Positions 5,220 through 60,617 of a stretch of 64,000 bases of DNA are shown here, piece by piece. The position numbers and the translations under genes were made by a program. The stretch lies in NCBI RefSeq assembly GCF_017743865.1, contig NZ_JAGHRJ010000002.1, positions 186,001 to 250,000 on the forward strand, written 5' to 3'. Source of the DNA: Labrenzia sp. R4_2. GTDB taxonomy: Bacteria > Pseudomonadota > Alphaproteobacteria > Rhizobiales > Stappiaceae. The notes beneath the pieces were generated by a model. It was not told where the DNA came from, did not search any database, and worked only from the letters and a program-made list of their open reading frames with translations. Positions within the stretch are counted from its first letter, which is position 1. Each line of letters starts with the position of its first letter.

Positions 5220-5545
5220 TTGCTCGACTCCTTCATCAGATAGTCTTCGACCCGGTGCACGGTGCGGGACACACCAGAGAGACTTTCATCGAGCCGCCCG
5301 ACCGTGCCGCGCAGTTCGGCGAGCGCCAGTTTCAGCTCCAGGACATCGTCCTTGGCGGGCAGATGCGCCAGCTCGCTTTCCGCCGACTGGATCCGCCGGT
5401 CGTGTTCGATCAGTTTCTGATCAACGGCCTTGAGGTGTTCCGAATTCACCTTCACGCGTGAGGTCAGCCAGGAATGCACAATGGCCCCGAGCGACAGCAG
5501 CACGGCGATGAGGCTCGCCCAGTCTTTCAAGGTGTCAGGGAGCAT
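5216..5545 (-). CDS. DUF2730 family phage protein (Mu gp25-like)
   Basis: The 109-residue product has one N-terminal membrane segment (about residues 7-28, LKDWASLIAVLLSLGAIVHS) followed by a long heptad-like helical stretch. This architecture is typical of DUF2730 proteins in Mu-like phages. Topology (anchor plus coiled coil) suggests a spanin-like or lysis accessory role, but that is inference. It sits between lysis genes and packaging genes. Confidence 0.75.
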   Translation of the reverse strand: MLPDTLKDWASLIAVLLSLGAIVHSWLTSRVKVNSEHLKAVDQKLIEHDRRIQSAESELAHLPAKDDVLELKLALAELRGTVGRLDESLSGVSRTVHRVEDYLMKESSK

Positions 5546-5582
5546 GGCGAGGTCTTCATTGCGCGCGGGTGCATCATCCGCC

Positions 5583-5810
5583 TCAGCCGATTTTCTGGCG
5601 GGCGGTCACCCGGCCGTAAATGGCGAGCAGCGCACCGGCAATCACCACCAGACTGTCCCATATCCCCAGCAGCTGATTGGCAAGGCTTGTGAGTTCGGCC
5701 TGATCGGCAGCAGACATTTCAAGACCAAACAGCCCGGCCAGCGCCCCAAGCACAGCCACAGCCGCGCCCCAGAAAGTCTTGGAGCAGAATAGTGATTTGG
5801 TTTCAGTCAT
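5583..5810 (-). CDS. holin-like small membrane protein
   Basis: The product from MTETK is 75 residues with two hydrophobic segments, about 10-26 and 47-65, the usual topology of a short holin. It lies directly after the endolysin gene. An upstream in-frame ATG at 5837 overlaps the endolysin stop as TGATG and would add nine residues. I chose 5810 because an AAGGA lies eight bases before it and the protein then begins like known phage holins. Either start leaves the membrane part unchanged. Confidence 0.65.
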   Translation of the reverse strand: MTETKSLFCSKTFWGAAVAVLGALAGLFGLEMSAADQAELTSLANQLLGIWDSLVVIAGALLAIYGRVTARQKIG

Positions 5811-5836
5811 GTGGTGATCCTTTTGAAAGCTCTGCA

Positions 5837-6493
5837 TCAAGAGCGTTTGAGGGCAAGGCGCAGCGCGCGGGCGGTCACCGGGCCGACTATCCCGTCAGCG
5901 GTGAGGCCTGCCCGTGTCTGGAACGCTTGCACCACAGCCCGGGTTTTCGGCCCGAAAGCTCCGTCTGCTACCGCGTCAAATCCGAGACGGGAAAGCTGTT
6001 CCTGCAGGCTCCGCACGGCTTCGCCGCGATCGCCGATCACCAGCCGTTTTCCCGCGAGCACCTCTGCCCGGTCGGTTACGGCAGGCGGCGCAGACATCAG
6101 GGCCGGATTGGCGGATTTCGGATAAGCATCCCAGGGCAGCTGGAAATGCGGTCCGTCGAAAAACGAGGTCCAGTCTCCGCCCCATTCCAAAGGGATATTG
6201 AGGTCTTGCGCCGCCGCCTTCATCGCGTCGGCAATCCGGTAATAGAGCGGCACCTCCCAGGAGACCCGGCTACCGATCATCGCCATCAGGTCGACCGCAT
6301 GGCCGCTGAGATGCCGGGAATTGAGGGTTTTAGACGCTCCGCGTTTCACGAGCTGGCGCTGGCGGGCCAGACTGCGCAGGCCTTCACTCACCTGAAACGG
6401 TTGCGACGTCGCCCGAGCGGCTGTCTCGACCACCCGCACAAGGTCCGGATGGACACCGATAAGGCGTTTGCGGCTGCGCGCGGTCAGGTTCAT
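5837..6493 (-). CDS. endolysin: M15 peptidase plus peptidoglycan-binding domain
   Basis: The 218-residue protein has an N-terminal M15/VanY-type zinc peptidase domain (about residues 10-125). It carries the motif SRHLSGHAVD at 59-68 and a later DGPHFQL at 113-119, so His61, Asp68 and His116 are the likely zinc ligands. A PG_binding_1 domain covers about residues 145-215. The enzyme should cleave peptide cross-links in murein for host lysis. No signal peptide is visible, so export depends on the holin-like neighbour. Confidence 0.9.
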   Translation of the reverse strand: MNLTARSRKRLIGVHPDLVRVVETAARATSQPFQVSEGLRSLARQRQLVKRGASKTLNSRHLSGHAVDLMAMIGSRVSWEVPLYYRIADAMKAAAQDLNIPLEWGGDWTSFFDGPHFQLPWDAYPKSANPALMSAPPAVTDRAEVLAGKRLVIGDRGEAVRSLQEQLSRLGFDAVADGAFGPKTRAVVQAFQTRAGLTADGIVGPVTARALRLALKRS

Positions 6494-6576
6494 GGCAGGA
6501 TCCCCGATGCATGAAAGTCATGGGAAATCGTGCCAAACGGGGCAGAAAAACATCACCCACGGCGGTGCGCGGAGGA

Positions 6577-6927
6577 TCAGGTTTCAAACAGGGAAAGCTG
6601 GGTACGGTCGCGAGCCCGGGCCGCCCACCGCCGGACGGTGGTTTGATCCACATGCAGGCGGCGGGCGATCGCCGCTTTGGAGCACCCGTCCCGCTCCAGC
6701 ACGGCGGCAAGCCAGGGCTTGGGGATCGGCACACGCACAATTCCCGGACCAAGGCGTTCGGCCAGCATGGCCGCTTTGTCCGGACCGGTCAATTCCACGA
6801 CCATGGAACGCTCCGGCCGGCGCGGCAGATAGAGTTCGGAGCCGCCAAAGGCCAAAAAGAACTCGACGGCGAGCGCCTCGCCCAGCACCTCGACATAAGG
6901 CGTGATATGAGCCGGTGGCCGGGTCAT
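6577..6927 (-). CDS. Mor-like phage late/middle transcription activator
   Basis: The start at 6927 is chosen because its ATG overlaps the GemA stop as ATGA; the longer in-frame reading overlaps GemA extensively. The 116-residue protein has a C-terminal helix-turn-helix (KAAIARRLHVDQTTVRRWAARA). The preceding region resembles the Mor/C family of Mu (VEFFLAFGGSELYLPRR). Position right after GemA is where Mu has mor. It probably activates the lysis and head operon; the 83-base gap to the endolysin gene could hold the target promoter. Confidence 0.7.
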   Translation of the reverse strand: MTRPPAHITPYVEVLGEALAVEFFLAFGGSELYLPRRPERSMVVELTGPDKAAMLAERLGPGIVRVPIPKPWLAAVLERDGCSKAAIARRLHVDQTTVRRWAARARDRTQLSLFET

Positions 6928-50195: not shown

Positions 50196-51042
50196 GTCCT
50201 GTTGACAAAGTGGGTTCCCAAATCAGCTGAGCTGTGATTCAAGACTGTCTTTTAGGAGCTAGTCTTGGCACGTGGCGATCTGACAGACGCAGAATGGGAA
50301 TTGATCGAAGCGCTTCTTCCTTCGGAGCGAGGCCGAAAGTCCCGCCCGGCTCAGGATAACCGCCGTTATCTGAACGGGATGCTGCATGTCCTGCGGGTTG
50401 GCTGCCCTTGGCGGGATATGCATGAACGCTATGGAAAATGGAACTCGGTCTATGTCCGGTTTCGCCGGTGGGCGGAACAAGGCGTTTGGGATGGGTTGCT
50501 CGAAACGCTGGTGGATCTCGGGCTTACCGATGACTGGCAACACATGATCGACAGCACCACAGTCCGCGGCCATAGTCAGGCAGCAGGCGCTAAAGGGGGA
50601 CTCATAAGGAGGCTTTTGGTCGATCACGCGGCGGCTTTACGACGAAAACCCACGCCAGAGCAGACGGTCAAGGACGCCCTCTCGGCTTTGTCCTGACAGG
50701 CGGCGAAGTATCAGACTACAGCGCCGGTCCCGCCCTCTTGGATATGCCTTTACGCAAGCCCCGGCTGTTCCTGGCGGACAGGGGATACGATGGCGATGCA
50801 GTGCACCAAAGCCTGCTGCTGGTTGGCATCAGCCCGGTCATTCCGCCAAAGTCCAACCGCAAGGAGCGAATTCCCTGCGACCTTCGGGCTTACAAGGACA
50901 GGAACCGGATCGAGCGAATGTTCAACAAGGTCAAACAGTTCCGAAGGATTGCCACTCGGTACAATAAAACCAAAAGATCCTTTGCCGCGTTCCTTAATCT
51001 CGCAGCTGCACGCATCTGGTTACGAGACTTTGTCAACAGAAC
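50196..51042 (+). mobile_element. IS5-family insertion sequence, IS427-like group
   Basis: The 847-base element has terminal inverted repeats GTCCTGTTGACAAAGT and, at the right, ACTTTGTCAACAGAAC (one mismatch in sixteen). It is flanked by direct CTAG copies (50192-50195 and 51043-51046), the four-base YTAR-type duplication typical of the IS427 group. It encodes the transposase in two overlapping frames. Both ends and duplications are intact, which suggests recent insertion. Confidence 0.9.
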
Positions 51043-51046
51043 CTAG
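50265..51046 (+). CDS. IS427-type transposase made by -1 frameshift
   Basis: The first frame (50265-50696, TTG start after AGGAG) encodes the DUF4096-like N-terminus (LTDAEWELIEALLP, HMIDSTTVRGHSQ). The catalytic second part is read in the -1 frame through SRGGFTTKTHARADGQGRP and FLADRGYDGDAV to NRIERMFNKVKQFR. The switch can occur at the run AAAGGGGG near 50591, as is known for this group. Asp in IDSTT, Asp in ADRGYD and Glu in RIERMF are the likely DDE residues. The stop TAG lies within the CTAG target copy. Confidence 0.85.
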
Positions 51047-53274: not shown

Positions 53275-53871
53275 ATGCAACGGAATACCAAAGCAGGAGC
53301 GTTTGCGCTTGGCCTCATCCTCGCGTTTGCGGGAAGCGCGGCAGCCAGTCCTTTGCCGCAAGAAACGATTACTCTGCCAGAAGACAGCCTTGAGGTAACA
53401 GTCGCCTCTGCGAGCCTGGATCAAAAAGATCCGCTTGAGAGCGAACTGACCATATGGGTCGGAGAAGTGCACTTGAACGGCCGCGACGTCGTTTGGGTTG
53501 AACTGATCGATTCCTATGGTGAAGTGATTTACGATTCCGAAGTCAGCACCAACGAAACCCATCTGTTGCCGGATGGACGCGCGGTCGTGGTCAATGCGCT
53601 GGATCCGCAGACTATGGTCGCGGAGAAGGATGAGTCCCGTCTCGTAACCGAAGGCGCACTTGTCGTGACCCGGCGGGTCATCAACGATGGTGGCAACGCT
53701 GCGGCGGTTGAATTGATCGAAACATCGGACGAACCCGTTCGTAAGGGCACGATGCTCGAAATCGCCGACTTCGGCCAGACGGTTTGGGAACGCGTTGTTG
53801 CATTCTTCAACGCAGCCACAAGTCAGGTAAAGGTCGCATGGACCTGGCTGGTCGACACGCTTCAAGCCTGA
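53275..53871 (+). CDS. exported protein of unknown function
   Basis: The 198-residue protein has a signal peptide (about 1-24, AGSAAASPL), a beta-rich middle (about 30-140) and a C-terminal amphipathic or hydrophobic helix (VAFFNAATSQVKVAWTWLVD, about 173-192). GGAGG lies upstream of the ATG. No family is recognised. It stands alone, followed by a GC-rich hairpin. Confidence 0.7.
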   Translation: MQRNTKAGAFALGLILAFAGSAAASPLPQETITLPEDSLEVTVASASLDQKDPLESELTIWVGEVHLNGRDVVWVELIDSYGEVIYDSEVSTNETHLLPDGRAVVVNALDPQTMVAEKDESRLVTEGALVVTRRVINDGGNAAAVELIETSDEPVRKGTMLEIADFGQTVWERVVAFFNAATSQVKVAWTWLVDTLQA

Positions 53872-54062: not shown

Positions 54063-54088
54063 TGATCCGCACTTTAAACTCCCCCGTA
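54063..54088 (+). promoter_or_regulatory. candidate RpoE (ECF11)-type promoter of the FAD/DUF1365/CFA operon
   Basis: TGATCC (54063-54068) is followed after exactly 16 bases by CGTA (54085-54088), 85 bases upstream of the FAD oxidoreductase start. The same elements with the same spacing precede the ChrR-like gene. TGATCC at -35 is the element known for the ECF11 sigma factor RpoE of Rhodobacter, which is controlled by ChrR. No other TGATCC with this spacing was noticed in the window. Confidence 0.65.
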
Positions 54089-54172
54089 GACGGTCTTGAA
54101 TAGCAACTGACCAACCGACTGGGCTTCCCCACGCTGGGATTTAGGCGGCCCTGCCAAGCCAAAGGATTTAAC

Positions 54173-55471
54173 ATGCGGATTGCCGTCATCGGCTCGGGTA
54201 TTTCCGGAAACAGTGCTGCATGGGCACTTAATAGCCACCACGATGTTGTTCTTTACGAGAAAAGAGACCGTCCAGGTGGCCACAGCGCAACGGCCGATAT
54301 CGACTACGACGGCACCCCGATGAGCGTCGACACAGGCTTCATTGTCTATAATGAACTCAACTACCCGAACTTCACAGCCCTACTCGACCACTTGGGTGTT
54401 GCAACCGAGATCAGCGACATGAGTTTTTCGCTGTCAGCGGACCGGGGCAAACTGGAGTGGTGTGGCGACGGGCTCAACGCCGTGTTCGCGCAGCGCAAGA
54501 ACATCGTCTCCCCGCGGTTTTTGAAAATGCTTCGGGACATCTTCCGCTTTAACAAACAAGCCGTCGCGGACTTGAACTCAGGTCGGCTTGCGGGCCAAAC
54601 GCTTGGTGGCTATCTGGAGGCGGAGCGCTATTCCAGCGGCTTCATCAACGATTATCTGCTTGCCATGGGTGCTGCCATCTGGTCGACCCCGATTAACGAG
54701 ATGCGCGCCTACCCGGCCGAAAGCTTCGTGGCGTTCTTCGACAATCACCGTCTCCTGTCCTTCGACCGTCAGCTGTGGCGGACGGTCTCCGGTGGCAGCC
54801 GCAACTACGTGAAGAAACTCACTGAGCCGTTTGCGAACAAGATGCGTCTTGGCAGCCCGGTTGCGGAGATCCTCAGAACCGATGGAAAAGTCGTTGTTCG
54901 CGACGAGACTGGTCATACCGATACATTCGATCACGTCATCATGGCCAGCCATACGGATCAAAGCCTTGCCATGCTCGGCGATCCAAGCGCGGAAGAGCGG
55001 GAGATATTGAGCGCAATCCGGTATCGTCCGAACGAGGTGTATCTGCACCGGGACGAAAGCCTGATGCCCAAGAAGAAAAAGGTTTGGGCATCCTGGAACT
55101 ACATGTCGGATCGAGAAGCGGGTGAAACACGCGATGTGACGGTTTCCTATTGGATGAACCGGCTGCAGAACCTTGACCGCTCCAAGCCGGTCTTTGTCAC
55201 GCTCAATCCGTTTCAGGCACCGAGCGAAGACAAGACCTTCGCCAAATACATCTACGACCACCCGCAATTTGATGCCAAAGCCCTGGCGGCCAAGCAGCAG
55301 CTCAGCAAGATCCAGGGTGTGAACAACACCTGGTATTGCGGCGCATGGAACGGTCATGGCTTCCACGAGGACGGATTGGCATCCGGTCTTAGCGTGGCCA
55401 AGGCACTAGGTGCTATCCTGCCGTGGGAGCGTGAGCGTCAAGAGCCGGTGATGCTGGAAGCCGCTGAATGA
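54173..55471 (+). CDS. FAD-dependent oxidoreductase (COG2907, amine-oxidase fold)
   Basis: The 432-residue protein has an N-terminal dinucleotide-binding motif GSGISGNSAAW at 7-17, an acidic strand end YEKRDRPGGHS, and a C-terminal FAD motif CGAWNGHGFHEDGLASG. It belongs to COG2907, which is regularly found with DUF1365 and cyclopropane synthase genes, as here. It probably oxidises or desaturates a lipid-linked acyl chain. Its stop overlaps the DUF1365 start as ATGA. Relation to the Rhodobacter furan fatty acid enzymes is possible but not shown. Confidence 0.85.
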   Translation: MRIAVIGSGISGNSAAWALNSHHDVVLYEKRDRPGGHSATADIDYDGTPMSVDTGFIVYNELNYPNFTALLDHLGVATEISDMSFSLSADRGKLEWCGDGLNAVFAQRKNIVSPRFLKMLRDIFRFNKQAVADLNSGRLAGQTLGGYLEAERYSSGFINDYLLAMGAAIWSTPINEMRAYPAESFVAFFDNHRLLSFDRQLWRTVSGGSRNYVKKLTEPFANKMRLGSPVAEILRTDGKVVVRDETGHTDTFDHVIMASHTDQSLAMLGDPSAEEREILSAIRYRPNEVYLHRDESLMPKKKKVWASWNYMSDREAGETRDVTVSYWMNRLQNLDRSKPVFVTLNPFQAPSEDKTFAKYIYDHPQFDAKALAAKQQLSKIQGVNNTWYCGAWNGHGFHEDGLASGLSVAKALGAILPWERERQEPVMLEAAE

Positions 55472-56346
55472 TACCCGCATCTGCCACAAACAGGATGTCG
55501 GACAATGGCCCCGCGCCGGATGCCGCGGCAGCGCTTTACAATGGCGCTGTCATGCACCAGCGCATGAAACCGAAACAACATCGGTTCTCTTATGACGTTT
55601 TCAATCTTCTGATCGATATTGATCGGTTGAAAGAAGCTTCAAGATTGAGTTGGATGTTGTCAGTCAACCGGTTCAACCTTCTCTCGTTTCATGAAAAAGA
55701 TCATGGCCCGCGAGACGGAAGCTCGTTGAGACAACACATCGACAGCTTGCTGGAGAAAGAGGGTTTGGAGCGGGCTCACCGGGTTGTGCTGCTCGCATAT
55801 CCCCGGCTTTTGGGGTACGGGTTCAATCCGCTCAGCGTCTATTATGCTTATAATAAGAACGATCGGCTGACCGCACTCGTCTATGAGGTCCGCAACACCT
55901 TCGGCGGTCTTCACACGTATGTCGGGCCGGTGCGTGACGGGCAGATCAGCGATGCCGGTGTTCGCCAGGATCAGCGTAAAGAGTTTTACGTGTCGCCGTT
56001 TATCAGCATGCAGCAGCATTATCACTTTCGCATGCTGCCGCCGGGCAATGCGGTGCGGGTCAGGATCCTGGAGACGGACGACACAGGTCCATTGTTGTCA
56101 GCAACCTTTTCCGGCACGCAGGAGCCCTTGACCACATGGTCTTTGATGCGCGCTTTTGCACGGGTTCCGCTTTTGAGCTTCAAGGTGATGGCCGCCATTC
56201 ATTGGCAAGCCTTTAAAATCTGGCGCAAGCGTGTACCATTTCATCCGCGGCCCGCGAATGATGGTAGGGACGACAGCGCGGGCCGGAGCACAGCTTCGGA
56301 ACTTTGGCAAGAAACAACAAACAACATTTCAAGGGGTTCGGCATGA
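55468..56346 (+). CDS. DUF1365 family protein
   Basis: The 292-residue protein matches DUF1365 (COG3496): AVMHQRMKPKQHRFSYDVF near residue 27, GYGFNPLSVYYAY near 116 and EFYVSPFISMQQHYHFR near 170. The reaction is unknown; the family is always close to cyclopropane synthase and COG2907 oxidoreductase genes. The overlaps with both neighbours (ATGA each) indicate translational coupling. About 25 C-terminal residues are disordered. Confidence 0.85.
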   Translation: MIPASATNRMSDNGPAPDAAAALYNGAVMHQRMKPKQHRFSYDVFNLLIDIDRLKEASRLSWMLSVNRFNLLSFHEKDHGPRDGSSLRQHIDSLLEKEGLERAHRVVLLAYPRLLGYGFNPLSVYYAYNKNDRLTALVYEVRNTFGGLHTYVGPVRDGQISDAGVRQDQRKEFYVSPFISMQQHYHFRMLPPGNAVRVRILETDDTGPLLSATFSGTQEPLTTWSLMRAFARVPLLSFKVMAAIHWQAFKIWRKRVPFHPRPANDGRDDSAGRSTASELWQETTNNISRGSA

Positions 56347-57572
56347 ATGGGCCTATTGTGTTGTCCGAGGACAATCTCCGCACGCAACTCAAAGGGACGC
56401 CGCGGCTTGCGCGCATGGCGGCAAACCTGGCAATCAAGATCCGCTATGGAACGCTCGACATCACTTTCCCGGACGGGCGCATGTTCCGGATCAATGGAAC
56501 GGAACCTGGGCCAGACGGCGTTCTGAAAATCCATAACTGGAAATTTTTCACCATGGCTGTGAAAGGCGGTGATGTTGGTGTCGGTGAAGCCTTCATGGCC
56601 GGCTATTGGTCATCTCCGGATGTCACGACTTTCTTGGAGATTTTCGCGCTCAATCAGGCGTCCACTTTGGAGGCCTTGCGTGGCCGACCACTAACCCGTC
56701 TGTTATTGTCGCTCCGTCATTGGCTCAACGCAAACACAAAGAGTGGGTCCAAGCGCAACATCTCGGCACACTACGATCTAGGAAATGCGTTCTATCAGGA
56801 GTGGCTCGACCCGTCGATGACCTACTCCTCTGCAATCTTCAGCAATGAAACCAACAGCCTGGAACAAGCGCAAGCTGAGAAATACGCGTCACTGGTCCGG
56901 CAAACCGGGATCGAACCTGGACACTCTGTTCTGGAAATCGGCTGCGGTTGGGGCGGCTTTGCAGAGCACGTCGCCAAAACAGTCGGGGCGAACGTCCGAG
57001 GCCTGACCATCTCTCGCGAGCAGTATGATTACGCCAGAGAACGGATCTTCAAGGCCGGCCTCAACGAAAAAGTCGAAATCGTCTTCCAAGACTACCGCGA
57101 CGAAAAAGGTGTTTATGATCGGATTGCCTCGATCGAAATGTTCGAGGCGGTCGGCGAAAAATACTGGCCGACCTACTTTGAAAAGGTATCGGACTGTCTG
57201 AAACCGGGCGGCAAGGCGGGCCTCCAGATCATCACGATCCAGGACCAGATGTTCGAGGACTACCGGTCGGGCACCGACTTTATTCAACGCTACATTTTCC
57301 CGGGCGGCATGCTTCCGCCTCCCGAAAAACTGGCAGAAATCGGCAAATCCCTTGGCCTTGATCTGAAAGATCAAAAAATCTTCGGGCAGGATTACGCGCG
57401 CACGCTTTTGGAATGGCGGCAACGTTTCCGCACCGCCTGGCCGCAAATTCGTCCGATGGGTTTTGACGAACGGTTCAAACGGCTGTGGGAGTTCTATCTG
57501 CACTACTGCGAGGCCGGTTTCCGCGCAGGCAACATCGACGTCAGGCAGCTGGTTTATGAAAAGGCGGCCTGA
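56343..57572 (+). CDS. cyclopropane-fatty-acyl-phospholipid synthase family methyltransferase
   Basis: The start at 56343 makes an ATGA overlap with the DUF1365 stop. The 409-residue protein has the CFA synthase signature SAHYDLGNAFYQEWLD (141-156) and SAM-binding motif VLEIGCGWGG (196-205), then ASIEMFEAVGEKYWPTYF and an N-terminal lipid-binding domain. It should add a methyl or methylene group to an unsaturated acyl chain of membrane phospholipid. As part of a predicted RpoE-controlled operon it probably serves membrane change under oxidative stress. Confidence 0.9.
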   Translation: MNGPIVLSEDNLRTQLKGTPRLARMAANLAIKIRYGTLDITFPDGRMFRINGTEPGPDGVLKIHNWKFFTMAVKGGDVGVGEAFMAGYWSSPDVTTFLEIFALNQASTLEALRGRPLTRLLLSLRHWLNANTKSGSKRNISAHYDLGNAFYQEWLDPSMTYSSAIFSNETNSLEQAQAEKYASLVRQTGIEPGHSVLEIGCGWGGFAEHVAKTVGANVRGLTISREQYDYARERIFKAGLNEKVEIVFQDYRDEKGVYDRIASIEMFEAVGEKYWPTYFEKVSDCLKPGGKAGLQIITIQDQMFEDYRSGTDFIQRYIFPGGMLPPPEKLAEIGKSLGLDLKDQKIFGQDYARTLLEWRQRFRTAWPQIRPMGFDERFKRLWEFYLHYCEAGFRAGNIDVRQLVYEKAA

Positions 57573-57602
57573 CTCGGTCTGTTGAGAGACTACTTAAAAT
57601 CC

Positions 57603-57639
57603 AAACAAGCGGTGCAACTCCATGCTGCACCGCTTGTTT
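57603..57639 (+). terminator. rho-independent-like terminator after the CFA synthase gene
   Basis: A perfect 14-base-pair stem AAACAAGCGGTGCA/TGCACCGCTTGTTT with a nine-base loop lies 30 bases after the stop. The A-rich left arm and T-rich right arm give the form of a terminator in both directions. It ends the three-gene lipid operon and may also serve the convergent SDR gene. Confidence 0.8.
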
Positions 57640-57758
57640 GCATTCATAGGCATCTTCGCTGATTGCCGACCTTACCGGAATTCAGGTCATTACTGTCGAG
57701 GATCACCGTAAAGAATGGCCGTGTGGGCAAAGGGGCTTACCGATCGATGTCCGGCGGC

Positions 57759-58562
57759 TTACGCCTTGCCCTTCTGATCCCATCCGGTCGTTTTGCGGAC
57801 CAGTTTGTAATAGAGGTTGAACGGTAAAAACTGGATGGCTTTCAACTGGCGAACAAACGCCTTTGGAAACGAGATCTCAAAGTGCTTCCGGTCCTGAAGT
57901 CCGTCGATGATCCCCCTGACAGCCTCTTGAGGTGAAATCAGGTGCGGCATCGGGAACGGATTTGATTTGGTGGCGGGCGTGTCGACAAATCCCGGGCTGA
58001 TGACTTGCAGACGAATTCCGGCCCGCTCGAGATCAAACCGCAGGCTTTCCGCGAAATTAAACAGCGCAGCTTTGCTGGCCCCATAGGCAGCAGAGGTTGG
58101 AAGACCGCGATAACCAGCAACCGATGACACGATAGCGATCTGCCCCTGCCCTGCCGCCTTCATCACATTGATAGCTGGCAGAACGACGTTCACGGTGCCC
58201 ATCAGGTTCACGTCGAACGTTTTCCGGTAAGCTTCCGCGTCGCCGTCGAGGCCATCTTGAGGCAGATAGATCCCAGCGTTTGCAACGACCAAAGCAAGCC
58301 CGTGTTCGGTTGCGATGGACGCGCAATGCGCCGCCATCAATGCGGTATTGCTCACATCGCCGGCATATACAACAATGGAACCAGAAAAGTCGGATGCGGC
58401 GTCTTCAAGCTCTGCCAATGCATCTTCTGAGCGCGCTGTGATGGCCACTGTCCAGCCGGTTCGCGCCATCTCCAACGCCAGTTCCCGGCCAATGCCAGAA
58501 CTTGCGCCTGTAATCCAAACAGCCCCGTCGGACGGGGCTGCTACGTAACTCACTATGGACAA
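57759..58562 (-). CDS. short-chain dehydrogenase/reductase
   Basis: The 267-residue SDR has the cofactor motif TGASSGIG (18-25), an NAG motif near residue 95, and the catalytic YGASK near residue 160 with a preceding Ser in SSVAGY. The C-terminal end is basic. It lies 55 bases after the ChrR-like gene on the same strand and is probably co-transcribed with it from the TGATCC promoter. Possible substrate: an acyl or lipid carbonyl; not shown by the sequence. Confidence 0.85.
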   Translation of the reverse strand: MSIVSYVAAPSDGAVWITGASSGIGRELALEMARTGWTVAITARSEDALAELEDAASDFSGSIVVYAGDVSNTALMAAHCASIATEHGLALVVANAGIYLPQDGLDGDAEAYRKTFDVNLMGTVNVVLPAINVMKAAGQGQIAIVSSVAGYRGLPTSAAYGASKAALFNFAESLRFDLERAGIRLQVISPGFVDTPATKSNPFPMPHLISPQEAVRGIIDGLQDRKHFEISFPKAFVRQLKAIQFLPFNLYYKLVRKTTGWDQKGKA

Positions 58563-58617
58563 TGATGTCTCCTTAAGTCTCTGCTATTTATACGCAAAGA
58601 CAGGAGTAATGGTTTGC

Positions 58618-59280
58618 TTATCCGCGCATGAAAGGTGCGAACCAACGGCCGACCGGCCCGGTCAGCTCCAAACGCCCAGCGGTCACTGCAAAGCAAATGC
58701 AATCATCGCCGTCATCTGCAATCGGGCGATGATCCACATCGTCATCGGCGAAAGCAACATCGCCAGTCACATAGTGACCATCGGTGTCCTTGAAACCGCC
58801 CTGGAGAACCAGGGTGAGTTCAGTCCCGTGGTGAGTATGTGACGGCATTGCGCGCCCTGCGCGGACCCAGATGAGGCTGGCATCGCAGCCATCAATTTCG
58901 CCGAGTTTGCATTCTTTCACACCAGGAAGAAGTGTTTTCCAGGCAACGCTCTCCATGGATGGGCCGATAATCGAGCGGAGCGATTCAGGAACCCGGCCAT
59001 CACTTTCGCACGAGCGCTTGGACGCTAGATCCCGGATTGGCTCTTCACTCTCAAAAATTGCGGCCAAGGCAGAGTCGCGGTCTGCAAATTCAACGGGATC
59101 GCTGTCAGCCAACCCCGTGCTGGCAAGCGTCTCAAGAGAATGGACATAGCCCCGGTTCTGGCCGCTCAATTCCAAGTGAGCACCAATCAGAGCTTGAGCC
59201 GGATACGTAAGTGTTCCGGCTGCGTATCCAGCCAACAACTCATCCATTCCGGTCACGTGCTTTTCCATCTCGTATCTCAT
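58618..59280 (-). CDS. ChrR-like cupin protein lacking the zinc-site cysteines
   Basis: The start at 59280 follows AGGTAA and gives 220 residues, close to Rhodobacter ChrR (213). The N-terminal part aligns with the ChrR anti-sigma domain (DELLAGYAAGTL), and His8 and His35 match its zinc ligands. The two Cys ligands are replaced by Ser39 and Asn42. The C-terminal cupin keeps the ligand pattern His148, His150, Glu154 and His184 (SHTHHGTELTLVLQGGF). No sigma factor gene is adjacent. It may be a ChrR paralog that senses without holding a sigma factor, or a cysteine-free anti-sigma factor. Confidence 0.8.
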   Translation of the reverse strand: MRYEMEKHVTGMDELLAGYAAGTLTYPAQALIGAHLELSGQNRGYVHSLETLASTGLADSDPVEFADRDSALAAIFESEEPIRDLASKRSCESDGRVPESLRSIIGPSMESVAWKTLLPGVKECKLGEIDGCDASLIWVRAGRAMPSHTHHGTELTLVLQGGFKDTDGHYVTGDVAFADDDVDHRPIADDGDDCICFAVTAGRLELTGPVGRWFAPFMRG

Positions 59281-59312
59281 GCTTACCTTTTGCTTCCAGA
59301 GTACAATTCGCC

Positions 59313-59338
59313 TACGGCTTGATTCAGCATCTGGATCA
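59313..59338 (-). promoter_or_regulatory. candidate RpoE (ECF11)-type promoter of the ChrR-like/SDR operon
   Basis: On the minus strand TGATCC (59338-59333) is followed after exactly 16 bases by CGTA (59316-59313), 33 bases before the ATG of the ChrR-like gene. Elements and spacing equal those before the FAD oxidoreductase gene. The agreement of two sites flanking one functional cluster makes chance less likely. Confidence 0.65.
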
Positions 59339-59582: not shown

Positions 59583-60617
59583 ATGTCTGTGTCCGCATCT
59601 GTCGTCGATGCCATCGGCAATACGCCGCTTATCCGCCTTAAGGGCCTGTCCGAAGAAACTGGTTGTGAAATTTTCGGCAAGGCCGAGTTCATGAACCCGG
59701 GACAATCCGTCAAGGACCGCCCGGCCCGTCAGATGATCCTGGAAGCCGAAGCGCGCGGCGATCTGAAGCCCGGCGGTGTCATCGTTGAAGGGACAGCAGG
59801 GAACACCGGCATTGGCCTTGCGCTGGTTGCAAGTGCACGCGGATATCGGACCGTTATCGTTATCCCGGAAACTCAGACCCAGGAAAAGAAGGATATGCTG
59901 CGCATGTGCGGCGCAGAGCTCCTCGAAGTTCCGGCAAAACCCTTCAAAGATCCGAACAATTACCAGCACGTGGCGCGCCGCCTTGCTGAAGAAATGGCCA
60001 AGACCGAACCGAATGGGGTTCTCTTTGCCGACCAATGGAACAATCTGGACAATCGCAAAGCCCACTATCTGACAACGGGTCCGGAAATCCTTGCTCAGAC
60101 AGATGGAAAGATTGACGGATTTATTTGTGCCGTCGGCTCCGGCGGAACGCTTGCCGGCGTCTCCACGTATCTGCGCGAGCAAAAGCCGGGCATTACGATC
60201 GGATGCGCCGACCCGCTGGGCGCAGGCATGTATCACCTCTTTAAAGATGGTGAAGCAAAGGCCACCGACGGCGGTTCGATTGCAGAAGGCATTGGACTTG
60301 GCCGCTCAACGGTGATTGTCGGCGATATCAAGGTCGATCATCCATATTCAATCCCTGATGAAGAAGCGCTGCCGCTTGTCTTTGATCTTGCCGAAAACGA
60401 AGGACTGCTGCTCGGCGGCTCGTCTGCGATCAACCTTGCGGGCGCACGGCGCTTGGCAAAGGAAATGGGTCCGGGCCACACGATCGTGACCATCCTCTGT
60501 GACCACGGCACCCGCAGCCAGTCAAAACTCTATAATCCTGAGTTTCTGCGGGCCAAGAACTTGCCGGTGCCCGGTTGGCTTGAGCGGACAGTCGACCTGA
60601 AACCGCCCTTCGCATAA
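59583..60617 (+). CDS. cysK: cysteine synthase A family (O-acetylserine sulfhydrylase)
   Basis: The 344-residue PLP enzyme has the lysine motif NPGQSVKDRPA with Lys44 as the cofactor-binding residue. It also has the acetylserine loop as EGTAGNTG (usual form EPTSGNTG) and the phosphate-binding GSGGTLAG. It makes cysteine from O-acetylserine and sulfide. The altered loop and extra C-terminal 25 residues distinguish it from the shortest CysK forms; a cystathionine-beta-synthase-like activity cannot be excluded. The upstream 190 bases contain no recognised regulatory site. Confidence 0.85.
   Translation: MSVSASVVDAIGNTPLIRLKGLSEETGCEIFGKAEFMNPGQSVKDRPARQMILEAEARGDLKPGGVIVEGTAGNTGIGLALVASARGYRTVIVIPETQTQEKKDMLRMCGAELLEVPAKPFKDPNNYQHVARRLAEEMAKTEPNGVLFADQWNNLDNRKAHYLTTGPEILAQTDGKIDGFICAVGSGGTLAGVSTYLREQKPGITIGCADPLGAGMYHLFKDGEAKATDGGSIAEGIGLGRSTVIVGDIKVDHPYSIPDEEALPLVFDLAENEGLLLGGSSAINLAGARRLAKEMGPGHTIVTILCDHGTRSQSKLYNPEFLRAKNLPVPGWLERTVDLKPPFA

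Follow-up and report, generated by a model that had tools for sequence, protein, structure and literature searches.

Promoter motif in the window and the genome

The question raised by this locus is which regulator acts at two copies of a promoter-like motif that stand before a putative lipid-modification operon and before a gene for a ChrR-like protein in 64,000 nucleotides of DNA from Labrenzia sp. R4_2 (order Rhizobiales, family Stappiaceae; contig NZ_JAGHRJ010000002.1, positions 186,001 to 250,000), termed here the window. Exact TGATCC-N16-CGTA was detected at only two sites in the whole 64-kb window, located 84 and 32 bases upstream of an ATG. A sequence-only reading had placed TGATCC and CGTA, 16 bases apart, before both operons, and its positions and strands were borne out; it had also described two identical promoters, which was correct for the boxes but not for the spacers, whose sequences differ. 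The analyses described here favor an interpretation of the locus as the core of a stress regulon of extracytoplasmic function group 11 (ECF11; RpoE/ChrR), in a derived form in which a zinc-free ChrR would restrain an unlinked sigma factor. We regard this interpretation as probable, with considerable room for doubt. The features on which it turns are as follows.

54063 to 54088, plus strand: ECF11-type promoter motif (TGATCC-N16-CGTA) before ufaD, exact match
54173 to 55471, plus strand: ufaD-like gene, flavin adenine dinucleotide-dependent protein of the amine oxidase family, 432 amino acids (Pfam Amino_oxidase, 79 bits), named from its position in the operon
55468 to 56346, plus strand: ufaO-like gene, DUF1365 protein, 292 amino acids (Pfam DUF1365, 273 bits), with an ATGA overlap with ufaD
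56343 to 57572, plus strand: ufaM-like gene, methyltransferase of the cyclopropane fatty acid (CFA)/CMAS family, 409 amino acids (Pfam CMAS, 284 bits), ATG at 56343 (TTG at 56304 possible), with an ATGA overlap with ufaO
58618 to 59268, minus strand: chrR-like gene, 216 amino acids, ATG at 59268 (ATG at 59280 possible), TIGR02451 at 151.2 bits (cut-off 124.5) and Cupin_7 at 54 bits
59313 to 59338, minus strand: ECF11-type promoter motif (TGATCC-N16-CGTA) before the chrR-like gene, exact match

Rhodobacter RpoE uses TGATCC, and we take the PSPTO_1043/PSPTO_1042 pair of Pseudomonas syringae pv. tomato to be ECF11 as well. The ten bases of the window motif, likewise at N16, are given as the consensus of PSPTO_1043, a sigma factor of the RpoE/ChrR type (excerpt of PMC5507510), in agreement with the earlier linking of the motif to a sigma factor of this type. 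According to the same excerpt, the promoter in P. syringae lies on the sigma gene itself; here it lies on chrR and not on the sigma gene.

The genome scan proposed in the sequence-only reading gave 28 exact matches at spacings of 14 to 18, five of them at N16, against 10 matches for the reversed control motif. Most (23/28) lay within stop-to-stop frames of more than 150 codons, the chrR site being counted among these because the frame stays open upstream of the chrR start. The five outside such frames were L021, L026, L029 (the ufaD site), L031 and L035. The motif count was rejected as proof of a regulon, the window containing 64 matches with up to two mismatches against 46.6 expected; the genome-wide count with up to one mismatch (306, against 70 for the reversed control) was likewise too high for a regulon to be called. 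Chance is ruled out by conservation of the motif among relatives, described below, and not by its count.

A ChrR-like protein without zinc cysteines and an unlinked sigma gene

The gene behind the minus-strand motif had been called ChrR-like. Its product belongs to the ChrR family and carries a cupin but is no ordinary ChrR, both zinc cysteines being lost and the sigma gene being unlinked. The zinc motif of the zinc-binding anti-sigma (ZAS) family, H-X24-H-X3-C-X2-C, is absent from this protein, whose first 85 residues contain no Cys. Relative to ChrR of Rhodobacter sphaeroides, H31 is conserved, Ser and Asn stand at positions 35 and 38 in place of cysteine, and H6 is replaced by Thr if the ungapped register is extended to the N-terminus; the cupin ligands H141, H143, E147 and H177 are kept, as are C187 and C189.

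Nine Sigma70_r2 matches were found in this genome. One of these, C22:113742-114305, is RpoE-like, with RpoE in 2q1z as its best PDB match (E 5e-50), and is the sole match to itself in the genome at E 1e-25. Judged by this PDB match, a sigma factor of the ECF11 type, on whose presence the sequence-only reading depended, was thus found. It is encoded on contig C22 and the chrR-like gene on C19, so the two are not adjacent; besides the latter, no gene of this genome exceeds the TIGR02451 cut-off, and hence no chrR lies beside the C22 sigma gene. Two other cupin proteins were rejected as canonical ChrR: a double cupin on C11, with 25 bits against the cut-off of 124.5, and a protein on C4, with no match to TIGR02451. 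No sigma factor was noticed in the C4 frames inspected by eye. The locus resembles the R. sphaeroides RpoE/ChrR (ECF11) system in its RpoE-like sigma factor and in having furan fatty acid genes near chrR, as well as in the residues kept; apart from the residues lost, it differs in the unlinked sigma gene, in the lack of an exact motif before that gene and in its gene order, cysK / chrR-SDR / ufaDOM (SDR, short-chain dehydrogenase/reductase).

A sigma match, one per genome, was found in 81 of 87 genomes of the family. A ChrR over the cut-off was present in 80 of these 81 and in none of the six others; the one exception with a sigma match, G017, had a split chrR, which at its locus (L155) was read as two pieces adjoining an rpoE match. 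Exact TGATCC-N15..17-CGTA was not detected upstream of any of the 54 unlinked sigma genes examined, L161 having a single mismatch. Several unlinked sigma genes (among L156-L183) had a common stretch about 66 bases before the start with TTCGAA or CCGAA, not TGATCC. A different ECF sigma factor of this genome might read both boxes, the RpoE-like one being irrelevant; the nine Sigma70_r2 matches and the missing motif upstream of the RpoE-like gene speak for such an arrangement. We consider it very improbable, however, as the motif is the consensus of an RpoE/ChrR-type sigma factor, the C22 gene has no second match at E 1e-25, and none of the 87 family genomes has the sigma gene without chrR, counting the split gene of G017.

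Conservation of the motif among relatives

The family set comprised 80 loci: the ChrR place in each of the 79 other genomes whose match exceeded the TIGR02451 cut-off, and that of the split gene in G017. The order set comprised 53 loci from 14 families, namely the 54 highest-scoring matches from outside the family less a partial match in G428. In stretches of up to 15 kb, 61 of the 80 family loci had a zinc-less chrR without rpoE, termed here the window layout, and 19 had rpoE with chrR. All 53 ChrR proteins of the order set lacked both cysteines and rpoE was present in none of the stretches, several of which end at contig ends.

Upstream of chrR, the 61 family loci without rpoE had 45 exact N16 sites and 16 sites with one mismatch. 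Upstream of ufaD in these loci (n = 56, five without a usable upstream region being omitted), 32 sites were exact, seven had one mismatch and 17 had at least two. The 19 rpoE-linked family loci had the motif upstream of rpoE (11 exact, 8 with one mismatch) and of ufaD (5 exact, 13 with one mismatch and 1 weaker). No exact site appeared in single-base shuffles of the upstream regions of any set, and none was found at N16 on the opposite strand of these regions. The exact family sites were all N16; N15 occurred in six order loci. When 79 distinct exact sites were compared, little information was seen in the spacer except for a purine after TGATCC. The motif is held in relatives while the spacer drifts.

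Distribution of the zinc-less, unlinked type

Cysteine at position 35 or 38 was found in 0/61 family and 0/53 order loci of the window layout, and all four cupin ligands were present in 61/61 and 53/53. Both zinc cysteines were present in all 18 readable rpoE-linked family sequences, the nineteenth being the split L155. Alternatively, this could be an ordinary Rhodobacter-like ECF11 regulon with neutral differences and a ChrR that works as known, its zinc perhaps bound through other side chains. This possibility draws on the shared promoter, the similar target genes and the identical cupin ligands; the His that the window protein has at position 4, and the His found at position 38 in 7/114 window-layout sequences, could serve as ligands. 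Against it stand the absence of Cys or His from position 35 and of Cys from position 38 in all 114, the lack of Cys in the N-terminal part of the window protein, with only 24/114 having any Cys in the aligned anti-sigma domain (ASD), and the differences in layout and sigma lineage. We consider it improbable.

The sigma gene could be placed elsewhere in the genome for 52 of the 53 order loci, the exception being G290. Seven lower-scoring order loci were chosen in addition, of which five were linked with cysteines, one (L283) was of the window type and one (L288) was linked without cysteines. Among the 130 order matches outside the family that were listed, 93 had a sigma gene placed (34 linked and 59 unlinked) and 37 did not, counts that hold for the matches listed and give no rates for the order. 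Of 385 genomes sampled from the class, 17 matched at E 1e-38; among seven loci examined from other orders, six bore the cysteines and a linked rpoE, and L342 was of the window type. Because the order set is entirely zinc-less and L342 lies outside, the zinc-less state is, as judged from these sequences, common in this order, with at least one occurrence beyond it. Matches to named plasmid records, among the 25 of 93 rows listed, were all below 36% identity and were uninformative on the zinc-less type. In place of the zinc-less cassette, six genus-mates (G032, G034, G046, G058, G060 and G071) have a linked one that bears the cysteines, suggesting whole-cassette exchange.

Sigma factors of family genomes with the window layout were 61 to 99% identical to that of the window genome, and those beside chrR were 41 to 47% identical. 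In a ChrR tree of 141 leaves (L155 dropped; L283 scored as unlinked by layout), the unlinked type (116 leaves) formed an exact split with a support of 0.995, and in a sigma tree of 81 leaves it did likewise (54 leaves; support, 0.998). With two distant sigma factors as the outgroup, the unlinked type was nested within the linked type (support, 0.83).

A zinc-less, unlinked ChrR was not described in the literature found, including the available parts of PMC7406223, PMC8999054 and PMC3420878, a provisional result as the search missed key works on the system. Zinc-less ASDs as such are already known, and zinc and non-zinc ASDs are reported to occur side by side within some groups; the zinc-less, unlinked ChrR provisionally appears to be new.

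Retention or loss of anti-sigma function

In R. sphaeroides, zinc in the ASD is needed for ChrR to inhibit its sigma factor, and RseA has a similar fold stabilized without zinc (excerpt of PMC6852236). RseA and other non-zinc ASDs are among the closest known parallels to the window protein; a zinc-independent fold is reported for such an ASD but, as far as the excerpts go, those named are not cupin-bearing ChrR proteins. The ChrR-like protein could, then, have lost its anti-sigma function and now be a cupin stress protein or enzyme within the regulon, the sigma factor being controlled through its transcription or by another partner. The loss of both ASD zinc cysteines where zinc is reported to be essential points this way, as does the sigma gene, which is unlinked and without an exact ECF11 promoter in 54/54 cases.

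Several observations argue against such a loss and make it unlikely in our view. H31 was kept in 110/114 window-layout sequences. Mean column conservation of anti-sigma helices 1 to 3 was 0.678 in the window type (n = 114) versus 0.562 in the other group (n = 26, taking in L283 and L288), means that are not adjusted for tree shape or group size; for the cupin the values were 0.713 and 0.664. Anti-sigma helices 1 to 3 of the zinc-less type are thus not relaxed, as far as column conservation tells. ChrR and sigma factor co-occur in the family and split alike in the trees. Finally, ChrR of L288 lacks the cysteines and still lies beside its rpoE, so cysteine loss does not require lost pairing. At this locus (G404, 5342-6684), rpoE adjoins chrR, the zinc cysteines are changed to Ser and Gly, and the N-terminal HH is kept; L288 is apparently a separate, partial cysteine loss.

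In the zinc-less type, sigma factor, promoter and cupin are kept and the zinc cysteines are lost; on the simplest reading, its ChrR still restrains the sigma factor. The following points, together with the lack of adjustment of the means just given, weigh against this reading. The reported need for ASD zinc in R. sphaeroides ChrR means that the cysteine losses could mark lost function. AlphaFold2 on six sequences gave the ChrR-like protein a mean predicted local distance difference test score (pLDDT) of 34 and hence no support for a kept fold. Loss of the first histidine depends on a register carried past the printed alignment; position 4 is His in the window protein and two near relatives and Asn in three others, and position 38 is His in 7/114. 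The generality of the motif is limited: upstream of chrR in the 53 order loci there were 34 exact sites, nine with one mismatch and 10 with at least two, and upstream of ufaD outside the family (n = 29; 24 loci omitted) there were none exact, four with one mismatch and 25 weaker. G290 has a zinc-less ChrR and a sigma match at only E 1.3e-41. Sigma identity ranges overlap among the listed order matches (linked, 45 to 54%; unlinked, 47 to 65%), both trees partly mirror species history, and the unlinked sigma factors in the tree were drawn from the best-scoring genomes only.

Proposed regulation

With a zinc-less but functional ChrR, the unlinked C22 sigma factor would read both promoters, and ChrR would still bind and restrain it, its helical bundle being held by protein contacts instead of zinc, as reported for RseA. 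The cupin and ChrR turnover, rather than zinc-thiol oxidation, would mediate the effect of singlet oxygen or lipid peroxides, and the lipid operon would make methylated furan fatty acids. Feedback would operate via the inhibitor alone because the sigma gene has no such promoter of its own. In R. sphaeroides, the cupin is needed for release and the furan fatty acid genes for ChrR turnover (excerpt of PMC6852236). From homology with that system, we infer that the locus may be induced by photooxidative stress. More tentatively, and with slightly less than even confidence, we propose an ECF11 lineage in many families of the order, and at least once beyond it, with a zinc-free ChrR that restrains an unlinked sigma factor, sensing of singlet oxygen or its lipid products by cupin and furan-lipid-dependent turnover alone, and autoregulation of only the inhibitor.

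A peptide study argues for the zinc site itself as a possible singlet oxygen sensor (excerpt of PMC6432622), and the excerpts of PMC6852236 and PMC6432622 treat it as an open question whether ChrR senses singlet oxygen by the ASD zinc site, by the cupin or by regulated turnover. A natural ChrR lineage without the zinc cysteines but with the cupin separates these competing ideas: if the zinc-less ChrR binds its sigma factor and frees it under singlet oxygen, sensing does not require the zinc thiols.

The lipid operon

Cyclopropane, methylated and furan types had been offered as changes to membrane acyl chains. The furan fatty acids of R. sphaeroides and Rhodopseudomonas palustris are products of UfaD, UfaO (a DUF1365 protein) and UfaM (excerpt of PMC7380195). 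Of the three types, furan formation fits the window operon best, as judged from DUF1365 and gene order. Likened by description to RPA2571-2570-2569 of R. palustris, the operon shares the ufaD-ufaO-ufaM order (from locus tags), DUF1365 in UfaO and an S-adenosylmethionine-dependent fatty acyl methylase. Of 133 loci, 105 had all three genes on one strand and in the same order (17/19 rpoE-linked family, 56/61 window-layout family and 32/53 order loci), and other gene orders never occurred; loci short of the full set miss a match, some through contig or stretch ends. By analogy, many genomes of this order would be predicted to make furan fatty acids.

The cyclopropane option was rendered improbable by five site residues, which are C-E-H-I-Y in Escherichia coli CFA synthase and in L186 and L188, further CMAS proteins encoded in this genome. 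These residues hold the bicarbonate that helps ring closure. The window protein has S-E-Q-I-Y, differing at two of the five positions, and of 76 aligned family UfaM-like copies (17 linked and 59 unlinked) 75 had the same residues and one had S-E-Q-V-Y. The third gene is thus probably not a cyclopropane synthase, and its product may carry out methylation without ring closure. The further CMAS-family proteins of the genome, at G000:C20:166173 and C23:50013, have C-E-H-I-Y intact and are better candidates for its cyclopropane synthases than the window protein. A model of the DUF1365 protein (pLDDT 65) gave weak fold matches, the best being nitrobindin (E 1.9e-3) and the others small beta-barrels; the likeness to nitrobindin may be a lead toward a UfaO cofactor.

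Neighboring features

The remaining features of the locus are as follows.

57602 to 57640, no strand: inverted repeat of 15 bp in the gap where the two operons converge, a possible terminator for both, read directly in the sequence
57759 to 58562, minus strand: SDR-family oxidoreductase gene downstream of the chrR-like gene (Pfam adh_short, 147 bits)
59583 to 60617, plus strand: cysK-like gene (PALP, 248 bits), divergent neighbor of the zinc-less chrR

Within 3 kb of chrR in the window layout, the SDR gene was present in 60/61 family and 41/53 order loci and the cysK-like gene in 61/61 and 39/53; the latter was present in none of the 19 rpoE-linked loci. The frame upstream of ufaD (53275-53871) encodes a secreted-looking protein without a Pfam match, and a frame resembling it by eye lies near chrR in L283 (5368-5967). 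Also by eye, two frames at 50265-51046 of the window resemble pieces of an insertion sequence transposase.

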